NCBI GenBank assembly: GCA_029339195.1
Contig: JAPTJF010000006.1
Span: 404,417-468,416, forward strand
Source of the DNA: Micractinium sp. NFX-FRZ
Taxonomy: Eukaryota > Chlorophyta > Trebouxiophyceae > Chlorellales > Chlorellaceae
Reading direction: 5' to 3'
Length of the DNA: 64,000 nt
Shown here: piece after piece, positions 1 through 25,813 of the stretch
Position numbering within the stretch: position 1 is the stretch's first letter
How the letters are laid out: every line of letters begins with the position of its first letter
The notes under the pieces: generated by a model
The model's input: the letters and a program-made list of their open reading frames with translations, nothing else
What the model was told of the DNA's origin: nothing
Database searches by the model: none
Program-made: the position numbers and the translations under genes

Positions 1-292
1 GGAGTCATCTGGGCTGGCTGGCAGGGGCTGCTTGCCCCGCCACTCAAGCCCCCCGTGTACCCTGGCCGCTGCTTGATTCCCTGGCGCTTCCCTGCAGGCT
101 CCTGCGACACACAACCGCTTCCCGTCATGCATGGCTCACCCCTCCTGTGCCTGCCCCCCTCCCTGCAGGCTCCCACGACAACATCGTGCAGCTCTCATGG
201 CTGTGCTGCTGATCTCTTCTAGCGCTGCTTGGCCCCGCAATTCCCGCTGTCTCCACGGCCCACCCTGCCCCTGCTCACTCCGCCCCCTGCAG

Positions 293-3200
293 GCTCCCAC
301 GACAACATTGTGCAGCTGCGGGGCCTGTGCTCCCACGGGCCCGACCTCTACTTAGTCATGGAGCTCTGCCCACGGTGGGGCGGGCGGTGCCGGGGTGGCC
401 GGGCTGCTGCAAGCAGAGCCTGTGTGGGGTACAGCCTGGGTGCGGGGCGCTGGGCGGCGGCGGCTGTGACAACTGCAGTGGATGGCACGGCAGGACGAGC
501 ATGCCCCTGTTTGGTGCACAAAAGCATGCATTGTTGGCCTTTGCTTAATCGTTGTTCGCTATCAATCGCACCACCCACCGCAGGGGCACCCTGGATGTTT
601 TGATCCACAAGGGCCACCTGCACCTGCAGCAGGGGGCAGGCACCGGCGCTTCTGGCGCTGCTGGGATGGCAGCCGGCGGCGCAGGGCTGGGCCACCGGCT
701 CGACCCACTCAAGCTGCTGCCCATCGTGCGCAGGTGCGCCTCAGGCCTGCATGCCTTCAGCCTTGCGTTCCGGCCGTGCCTTCGTACCTACCATGCCCCG
801 CTGACGCTGCCGCCTGCAGCTGGGGGCGCCCTGCTGCCTCACTGTGCTTCGCCCTGCCTGCTGCCCTGCCTGCCGCCGCGCCCACGCTACAGAACCCGCA
901 CCTCCCTTACTCCCCCTTCCCCCACCCCACCCGCCTGCAGCGTGGCGCGCGGCATGCTGCACCTGCACACCCGCAAGCCGGCCGTGTTCCACCGGGACCT
1001 CAAGCCCGGCAACCTGTTCCTGGGTGAGGGCACAGGACATTAAGGCTACACATCTGTCTCTGGGATGGTTTTATGGGTTCAGGGCACCTGAGGGAGCACA
1101 CTACAGGCTAGTCGAGACATGCCGATTTGCCGTACAGGGTCAGAGTTGGGGGGTGTCCGGGCAACCCGTTCCTGGGTGAGGGCACAGGGCACAGGACATT
1201 GGACACACCTGTCGGTGATACAAGGAACAAGGTTGTAGGGGTTTCAGGGCAACCTGTTCCTGGGTGAGGGGGCACAGTGGGGCTATTAGTCTAGACACGC
1301 GTCTCGCTGCGAAAGGATCAGGGTTTGGGGGGTGCAGGGACACCTGCCCCTGGCTGACGGCACTAGGCCACACTTCGCGTGCAAAGAGAGGGGCCAGGGC
1401 ACCGCAGGGCACCGTGCAGGCCTCACTGTCAGCCGACCCCCTGTCCTCTGTTTCACGCACAACCTAAGGGGTCACATCCACGCCAACCTTGAACCACACG
1501 GATTGCCAGCCCCAGGACGGGCACGCAATCATGAGCCTGCTATGCTCCGACCTGTACTACAGGGAGTCAAAAAGAGTCCGCCCCTTCCCACCCCCTCGTC
1601 CACCCTGCAGGCCACGGCGGGGTGGTCAAGGTGGGCGACTTTGGGATGAGCCGGTACGCCGAGTCGTGGCGGCGGGAGGCGGGGGACGGCATGCTGGAGC
1701 GCACACTCACGCCAGGTGGGAGAGAGAGGCAGGTGGTTGGGGGTTTGGGGAACGTGGTCGCCAGCAGCGGGTCCTTGCAGGCTCGCTCAAAGCCGAGCCT
1801 GGGTTGCTGTGGACGCAAAGTGGTGGATGCGCTGGCTGCAGTGGCTTGAGTAGAACGTGCTGAAATGGGGGCTGTGCTGGCGGGGTGGGCCTTGCGTACT
1901 TGTCTTGGGCTGGGGAGGGCGAGTGGCAGAGGGCCCACCGTGGGGCTGCTGTCCTGGCCTGTGCAGGCGTGACTGGCACCGCCGCCTACTGTTCTGCCCT
2001 GGGCTGCTTGGGCATGCACCCCAACGAATTTCAAACCCAAAACGGTGCCGCAATGTTGATGTGTGCAGGCGTGATCGGCACCGCCGCCTACTCTGCCCCC
2101 GAGCTGCTCAACCCGGACACCCCCACCGACAGCGAGCGGCCGCCGTCCCAGGAGGACGAGGAGCGGATCCTAAAGGCAGATGTGAGCATAAGGGTGTAGG
2201 TTTGGGTGGGACTGCTACCATGATGAGGAGGAGGGCAGCGGAAGGGAAGGGCGGGCCCAGCAGCAGAAGGCGGAAGAGTGGCTGAGGGCCAGGTGCTGAG
2301 CGGCGGCCCTCATGTGAGAGGGCCTCAGGTGAGAGGAAGAGGAGCGCCACCTGGAGACAGACGTGGGGAGGGGGCTGATCAGGGGTGCAGAGCGCAAGGG
2401 AGGCGCCAGCTGCGGTCGGCGCATGAAGGGATGTGTCTGCTTGCACCTGGCTTTCCCTGCACGCCCTGGGCCGGCCCACTCAATTGCCCCCCGCCGTCCC
2501 GCCTGCCTACCTGCCCACCCACCAATCCCCGCCCCTCGCTGTGCCCTTGCACCTTGCGCAGGTGTATGCGTTTGGTGTGACGCTGTGGGAGATTTTGGAG
2601 CGCAAGCGGCCCTTTGGGGGCATGGATGGTTTCCAGGCAAGACAGGGAGGGGGTGGGGTGGGCTGCCCGCGGGTGTTCCTGGGTAGCTGGGTGTAGCCCA
2701 GCACCCTCCAAACCTCCCCTCAGTCAGATGAACTGTCGGAAGGGGGAGGACCCTGAGGCCGCTGGCGCATGAGCCGACACACATCCACCTGCCTTTGAAT
2801 CTTGCGTTCTCCCTGCCCCTCCACCCTTTAAGTGTGTATCGCTGCATCCAGACGCACCTCACCCTGACCTCAGCGCTGTGGGGCTCCCAGGGTCCTGCCT
2901 ACCAACTGGCCCCAGCTGCCGCTTCCTGCCTGCTGCTGCAGATCCAGGCACAATGGCTACCTTGAACCCCCTCCAACTCTACCCAAAGGCTCCTCCCAAG
3001 GTTTCTAATCGCCTCCTGCTGTCTCCTCCCGCCTGCCCCTGCAGATCCAGATGCAACGGTCACCTTGCCCCCCAACTCAACCAGGCCCTCTCCCGTGCTG
3101 ATCGCCTCTCGCCGCCCGCTCCCGCCTGCCCCTGCAGATCCCCAACTCAACCAGGCCCTGTCCCGTGCTGACTGCGTCCCGCCGCCCGCTCCCGCCTGCC

Positions 3201-24900: not shown

Positions 24901-25813
24901 GCAGATGGCCGGCATTGAGGACTGCTACACCTGTTCACGCGGCTCCACCAAGACGATGGGCAACACCATCAAGGCCACCTTCTTTGCGCTCGCCAACACC
25001 TACGGTGAGGGGGCGGTGCCCAGTGGGGGGAGGTGTGAGGGGACGTGTCGAGTGGGAGGTTGTTGGTGGGGTGGGCAGGGCTGTGAGGGCCACCCTCTTT
25101 TGCGCTCGCCAACACCAACGATGAAAGGTTTATAACAGCGCGCGCATGGTGGTGTCAAGTGGGGGCGTGCCGGTGGGATTGCGGCAGCACCGGGAAGGAG
25201 ACCCTGCTTTGTGCGGGCCGTGGCTCAAGGGAGCGGGGTCCTGCTGTGCAGCGCGGTGCTAGGCAGCTTTGTGGGCCTGCACCCTGTGCGCACCCCGGGG
25301 CACCAAGCGTGTCCGATATACGAATCCCTGCCTGCTCTCCATCTTTCTCAAATCACTGCATTTTGCTCAACTTGCTCCCACCCTCCTTGCTCCTCCCCGC
25401 CCCCTTCAGGCTTCCTCACGCCCGAGCTGTGGCGCGAGACCGTGTTTGTGAAGAGCCCCATGCAGGAGTACTCCGACTTCCTGGCCAAGCCGGTGAGGCG
25501 GTGGCAGGGGGGGCACTTCATATTTGGGCAGGGGGGATGAGGAGGTGACATGGCATGTGTATCACTGATGAAGGAGGCACAGATCGAAGGACACCTGCCA
25601 AGCAAGGGGCCATGTGTAGCGGGAGCCGCCCAGGGGCCACCCACCCGACTTTTGGCACCGAGGGAGGGAGGCTTCTGGGAGGCAAACGGGGCGCCTGCTC
25701 TCCTGCCAGACAGTGCCTGCCGAACAACACATGTTGGCCCCTGTTGCCGACCCGCGCCTTTGCCCGTTGCCCCCCGCCCTCCCTGCCTTCAGGTGGTGGG
25801 CAAGGCCTACTGA
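21908..25813 (+). CDS. RPS2: 40S ribosomal protein S2 (uS5)
   Basis: Small-subunit ribosomal protein near the decoding centre and mRNA entry. Seven exons join in frame to 271 aa: 21908-22090, 22966-23064, 23799-23940, 24427-24576, 24867-25004, 25410-25492, 25793-25813. The N-terminus is an RGG/GRG-rich tract typical of eukaryotic uS5 (target of arginine methylation in other species). Then [11 protein letters not shown], the S5 double-stranded RNA-binding fold ([54 protein letters not shown]), and the C-terminal domain ([51 protein letters not shown]). Length and order match the family. The last exon has six codons and the stop. Introns are long for this gene type (up to 874 bp), and at least three contain copies of adjacent exon edges. 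Confidence 0.96.

Follow-up and report, generated by a model that had tools for sequence, protein, structure and literature searches.

Do the introns of this alga carry faded copies of the exon borders that flank them and, if so, could such copies record how the introns came to be lengthened? The question is raised by five genes (a kinase, a rhomboid, a GT61, a polyprenyl synthase and RPS2) in the 64,000-nucleotide stretch of DNA analysed here, hereafter the window (G000:C6:404417-468416; 66,065,352-base, 838-contig assembly; about 65% G+C). A sequence-only reading had described, within their introns, diverged second copies of the neighbouring exon end together with its splice site, which we call echoes. 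We set the window beside 26 ten-kilobase tiles from 26 contigs, giving a sample of 324 kb that is drawn from large contigs and amounts to 0.5% of the genome. In it, a self-trained semi-Markov gene finder, whose models are mostly ab initio, predicted 86 genes with, in all, 483 introns of median length 265 bp; GC3 is 0.83, and the models are free of internal stops. The testable set comprised 482 introns with 946 exon edges, in 80 intron-bearing genes. Pfam matches were obtained for the five genes, the predicted internal exons of RPS2 and GT61 match those built by hand, and the GT61 model aligns without gaps to three orthologous proteins across all 11 junctions (top protein match 90% identity; Micractinium sp. 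CCAP 211/92, 82% over the query). The RPS2 micro-exon at 22757-22780 is probably a gene-finder error, and the predicted GT61 start at 12070 is probably wrong.

Each edge was represented by 60 exon bases and zero intron bases, and was aligned to three targets: its own intron, introns belonging to other genes, and the reverse complement; because the edges are exon-only, the splice consensus is unable to raise the scores. Expected counts come from pairing every edge with up to 40 introns from other genes. At a score of at least 100, 79 of the 946 edges have an echo in their own intron; the introns of other genes lead one to expect 1.6, and the reverse complement gives 4. The comparison with shuffled intron-exon pairs proposed alongside the sequence-only reading came out in favour of the echoes, and the reverse-complement count in favour of their direct orientation. 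The corresponding figures are 103, 6.7 and 13 at scores of at least 90, and 235, 110 and 135 at scores of at least 70. Donor and acceptor edges contribute similar shares (38/472 and 41/474 at 100 or more), and introns with both kinds of echo (8/464) are as frequent as independent occurrence would give (p 0.24). The copies are also specific to edges: segments from the exon interior, 90-150 bp from the edge, reach 100 in one case out of 247, against 18/247 for the edges of the same exons. With at least one echo of 90 or more in 95 of the 482 introns, and in 34 of the 80 intron-bearing genes, nearly one fifth of the sampled introns contain a faded exon-edge copy. The effect extends well past the window and is not specific to it (90/805 edges at 90 or more and 70/805 at 100 or more outside it), and the five genes originally singled out bear it out, with 11/71 edges at 90 or more, 8 of them at 100 or more.

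Strong echoes, defined by a score of at least 95 and an edge gap of at most 4 bp, number 81; they lie 47-317 bp from their edges, 63 of them at 60-153 bp, and the 80-150 bp suggested earlier is true of most. For the whole window we counted an edge's first echo at 90 or more and later ones at 85 or more, which gives 17 echoes at 13 edges; the span that the sequence-only reading had covered holds 15 of these echoes, at 11 edges. The kinase edge at 293, whose intron begins upstream of the window, adds one more. The first coordinate of that span, 94, marks a resemblance of about 18 bases that was seen by eye and is unscored. The echoes and related pairs in the window are as follows.

169..209, plus strand: kinase, acceptor echo of the exon starting at 293 (part 293-333); distance 124, 33/41 identical, score 133, p 0.007 against 150 other introns (coordinates are those of L001 minus 1500)
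1157..1191, plus strand: kinase, donor-side echo of exon end plus intron start (1005-1039); 35 bp, identity 0.91, homology running across the donor 1023/1024; the same exon end has an extra 16/16 match at distance 240 (p 0.02)
1967..2025, plus strand: kinase, acceptor echo of the exon at 2069; distance 102, AG kept, 44/60
3045..3095, plus strand: kinase, acceptor echo of the exon at 3208; distance 163, AG kept, 36/51
3070..3211, plus strand: kinase, true tandem pair with a 70-bp unit spanning the acceptor 3207/3208; identity 0.93 over 72 bp
9859..9901, plus strand: rhomboid, acceptor echo of the exon at 9989; distance 130, AG kept, 37/43
9748..9794, plus strand: rhomboid, weaker second echo of the exon start at 9989; distance 248, edge gap 7, 33/47
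13861..13917, plus strand: GT61, donor echo of the exon ending at 13772; distance 149, GT lost, edge gap 4, 46/57
14561..14616, plus strand: GT61, donor echo of the exon ending at 14495; distance 121, GT kept, 43/56
18448..18477, minus strand: polyprenyl synthase, acceptor echo of the exon 18350-18379; distance 98, AG kept, 24/30
18908..18956, minus strand: polyprenyl synthase, acceptor echo of the exon 18794-18848; distance 108, AG kept, 42/55
19551..19715, minus strand: polyprenyl synthase, three donor echoes of the exon bordered at 19817; GT kept in 3/3
19551-19584, minus strand: first of these; distance 266, 27/34
19611-19655, minus strand: second; distance 206, 33/46
19683-19715, minus strand: third; distance 134, 25/33
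24007..24049, plus strand: RPS2, donor echo of the exon ending at 23940; distance 109, GT lost, 35/43
24091..24127, plus strand: RPS2, a second and weaker donor echo of the exon end at 23940; distance 192, edge gap 5, 28/37
24755..24784, plus strand: RPS2, echo of the exon part 24876-24903; distance 121, edge gap 9, 27/30
25070..25120, plus strand: RPS2, donor echo of the exon ending at 25004; distance 116, GT lost, 40/51
27634..27694, plus strand: PP2C gene, donor echo of the exon ending at 27603; distance 91, GT lost, 39/61; beyond the span covered earlier
42604..42667, minus strand: acceptor echo of the predicted exon 42458-42517; distance 150, AG lost, 44/64, sequence partly palindromic; beyond the span covered earlier

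What does an echo do to the length of its intron? Among introns with a single strong echo at a distance of 60-153 bp (n=61) the median length is 360 bp, whereas in echo-free introns with room for one it is 246 bp (p 6e-13). Subtracting one unit brings them to 251 bp against 235 bp (p=0.71, in a comparison between present-day introns), whereas subtracting the exon copy alone leaves them too long at 298 bp (p 3e-5) and subtracting two units makes them too short at 149 bp (p 1e-13). The difference in length equals one full unit, and each event therefore appears to add both echo and spacer. Overwriting of intron sequence at constant length is disfavoured by these tests.

The sequence-only reading held that the copy spans the splice site, and this stands on the exon side; on the intron side, homology is undetectable in most cases. 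It reaches p<0.05 in 16 of the 71 strong echoes that could be tested (the spacers of the others being below test length), in 10/54 of those at distances of 60-153 bp and in 4/17 of those with an exon identity of at least 0.85. In decay simulations, whose priors were judged against hand-tallied identity bins and whose exon-side identities are roughly those observed, the expected share is 0.48-0.57 overall and about 0.72 among the high-identity echoes; a prior with a slower clock (mean 0.4) expects 0.25, yet yields too few high-identity echoes. Either intron ends diverge more than twice as fast as the echo, through low complexity or through selection that separates competing sites, or part of the echoes are partly templated insertions. 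Border-crossing tandem units do occur, at L028:4570 (68 bp, 0.93), L026:6524 (62 bp, 0.91) and position 3070 of the window (70 bp, 0.93), and an intron in L015 holds tandem units of 106-107 bp with identities of 0.93-0.99. The spacers show a slight excess of local origin among 48 examined on either strand (9 against 4.0 and 8 against 3.6 at scores of at least 100), and none of the 48 share sequence with one another (best score 110). Nor did we find a family of the introner type: 42 intron pairs reach E<=1e-4 among the 483 introns of the 324-kb sample, the strongest of them belonging to neighbouring paralogs in the window; with no intron family and no common spacer in the sample, we reject introner families as the source. 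The window contains a minus-strand gene cluster with pieces in common (29902-33022, 38350-47054, 50722-53639 and 57992-60771), in which two of the predicted proteins share 53% identity across 85 residues and members' introns align at 76% over 141-147 bp. A dispersed repeat lies in an intron at L015:3280-3378, where it is overlapped by 19 of the 39 genome matches listed for that tile, many of which end at 3376-3378.

The lengths of the units are far from evenly spread. Fifteen of the 81 strong echoes, in 15 different genes, have units of 103-105 bp; a smooth density through the 64 echoes at or below 153 bp, spike included, expects 4.2, and none of 5000 resamples reaches 15 in any 3-bp window. 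The spike was present in the first 264 kb (11/61) and again in the 60 kb fetched later (4/20). Within units of 98-108 bp the exon part varies from about 25 to 95 bp, which fits a fixed unit placed in random phase. A 10.4-bp helical periodicity of the unit lengths is not convincing (p 0.29 and 0.32 over all values; 0.03 and 0.11 without the spike).

Local repeats differ in number between compartments: at scores of at least 100 they are five times more frequent in intron tiles (471/13806) than in intergenic ones (63/9385; null 5 and 2), although gene specificity is not proved by this contrast, because "intergenic" sequence may contain missed genes and because pairs without a conserved partner fade faster. 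At the ends of coding sequences, which bear on whether echoes depend on splicing, the cases are few and several are of low complexity (start codons 3/64 with 0.37 expected, stop codons 2/54 with 0.33, at 100 or more). The kinase paralogs L002 and L003 share a 150-bp exon, and both introns flanking it carry acceptor-side echoes in L003 (scores 129 and 113, edge gaps 11 and 14), whilst the same two introns of L002 have no acceptor echo of 80 or more; this contrast, in two introns only, suggests that echoes turn over. In the same pair, a 201-bp exon of L003 has as its counterpart, by length and by protein, three exons of L002 (74, 50 and 77 bp), and the presence of introns differs. A second RPS2-like gene lies in G000:C9 at about 57.6-61.5 kb (L034, L035), and its predicted exons of 54, 38 and 58 bp together make up the length of the 150-bp exon 4 of the window copy, which therefore differs from it by two introns, one of them at AAG|GT.

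By their sequence, the echoes decay as neutral DNA does. Mismatches fall evenly over codon positions (310/1438, 293/1434 and 338/1431; p 0.11), and 129 of the 143 indels between echo and exon are not multiples of three. Could the echoes nonetheless be kept as decoy or alternative splice sites (the sequence-only reading had suggested cryptic or alternative ones), or be decayed alternative exons? The dinucleotide GT or AG is retained at 47 of the 81 strong-echo edges, which could speak for it, but its base identity (0.62-0.77) is no higher than that of the adjoining exon bases, and codon-blind mismatches and frame-breaking indels lend the idea no support from sequence; the gapless GT61 alignment at every junction likewise speaks against it, and we consider this reading very unlikely. 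Upstream of echo acceptors, the share of pyrimidines is 0.651, compared with 0.548 at matched positions in other introns and 0.738 at real sites (p 5e-6), and the echo acceptors therefore resemble once-functional sites in decay and not randomly placed fragments of exon. The sampled introns also have a strand asymmetry, with 39% G right after donors and 43% C right before acceptors.

The explanation that we find best, and hold to be somewhat probable, is that short, roughly tandem duplications fall across splice sites and that the inner copy is absorbed by the intron. Duplications within genes would be short and local, for the most part of 60-150 bp, and a unit close to 104 bp would be favoured. 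Where the duplicate straddles an exon border, the outer, exon-proximal splice site would remain in use, and the event would be tolerated because the mRNA is unchanged. The inner exon edge and its splice site would now be intronic, the intron would be longer by one unit, and neutral decay would follow. Since the real exon is conserved and changes accumulate in one copy only, the exon part of the echo would still be recognisable; in the intron part, where neither copy is kept constant, fading would be at least two times faster. The events themselves would be DNA duplications, presumably from the repair of staggered or doubly nicked breaks, in a process that may be continuing at exon borders. In its core the sequence-only reading is supported by many cases, with a local duplication over the exon border, one of two sites used and the remainder taken into the intron. 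Three observations count against this explanation: the scarcity of intron-side homology, the spike at 103-105 bp, which simple tandem duplication does not predict, and the five-fold contrast between intron and intergenic repeats, which would not be expected of a process blind to location, though the base composition of intron ends is biased.

It is with these observations in mind that the other readings are best weighed. Perhaps, during break repair, an exon edge close by is copied and becomes linked to filler or to some other sequence; copy and unrelated spacer would then enter together, often as about 104 bp in total. Such partly templated insertion would account for echoes with 92-97% exon identity and no significant intron side (L005:4755, p 0.08; L028:8236, 0.27; L007:82, 0.78) and for a gain equal to the whole unit rather than to the exon copy alone, and passages of a study of rice describe non-tandem duplications from within 200 bp (PMC7407515). 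On the other hand, random insertion would not be expected to yield copies that contain the edge and adjoin decayed splice sites, the spacers are only slightly enriched in local origin, and some pairs are plain tandems; we regard this reading as unlikely. Another possibility, which we also doubt, is a gene-associated duplication whose reach is fixed at about 104 bp, by which introns would be enlarged in quanta, with an exon-edge copy 104 bp into the intron next to a splice-site-like non-copy of the old intron end; a process of this kind would leave the 103-105 bp spike, the shortage of intron-side homology and the few intergenic local repeats.

The remaining readings fare worse. A draft assembly of 838 contigs (with 100 Ns in one tile) and mostly ab initio models, including the RPS2 micro-exon and GT61 start noted above, could in principle generate artefacts; yet most echoes are 20-30% diverged and carry indels, which misassembly does not produce, the internal exons of RPS2 and GT61 agree with hand-built ones, the GT61 junctions are gapless against orthologs, and the 11/71 edges come from five verified genes, so that an artefact is even less probable than retained splice sites. 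Least probable of all is that whole introns were gained when an exonic AGGT segment was duplicated in tandem. Duplications that span a border are known to give rise to new introns (PMC4974935), and paralogs do have extra introns, but the cross-homology that such gains would leave is absent among 463 introns, both between intron head and downstream exon start (6 against 7.3 expected) and between intron tail and upstream exon end (3 against 3.9), with the proviso that very old gains are invisible. Where the sequence-only reading had offered growth or gain by small duplications, growth by one unit per echo agrees with the data and gain from AGGT segments does not; as a whole, its interpretation is partly supported.

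If short duplications across splice sites are indeed the source, there are precedents for such events. Vaughn and Bennetzen (2014) reportedly attributed short tandem duplications in rice to patch-mediated repair. Fill-in by CST/Pol alpha-primase is described, in passages of PMC8355091, as turning breaks that are staggered or made by paired nicks into short tandem duplications, and passages of PMC7407515 report tandem, partially tandem and nearby non-tandem duplications from break repair in rice; the tandem and the templated reading therefore both have precedent. The likeness to such duplications lies in direct, head-to-tail copies of tens to hundreds of bp that enlarge the genome; the difference is that the echoes of the alga sit at exon borders and are mostly old, and that a 103-105 bp class does not appear in the passages of either source. 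In the potato RdRp gene, according to PMC4974935, an intron was gained by duplication across an intron-exon border; the duplicate contains the 3' part of an intron together with the 5' part of the exon that follows it. The potato event produced a new intron, whereas here the inner copy is swallowed and an old intron lengthened, in many genes. The direct repeats described in PMC11782384 are likewise located at intron-exon borders, but are 4-30 bp long and pair the 5' with the 3' border, while echoes are 25-95 bp and link a border to sequence within its own intron. Introners (PMC9860276) resemble the echoes in that many introns of one genome are altered, and differ in the intron family and common spacer that we did not find here. 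Seven mechanisms of intron gain are covered by a review (PMC3443670). We recognised no report of genome-wide exon-edge copies that record intron growth in open-licence PMC text, covered mostly as listings, which is weak evidence of absence.

The history of intron length is hard to reconstruct because intron sequence fades fast. A conserved exon keeps one side of a duplication readable, and intron growth thereby becomes countable edge by edge in a single genome. A sharply preferred unit would indicate a specific break geometry or chromatin structure. If the duplication reading is true, the exon edges of this alga would be a fossil record of intron growth, formed whilst the protein remained unchanged.
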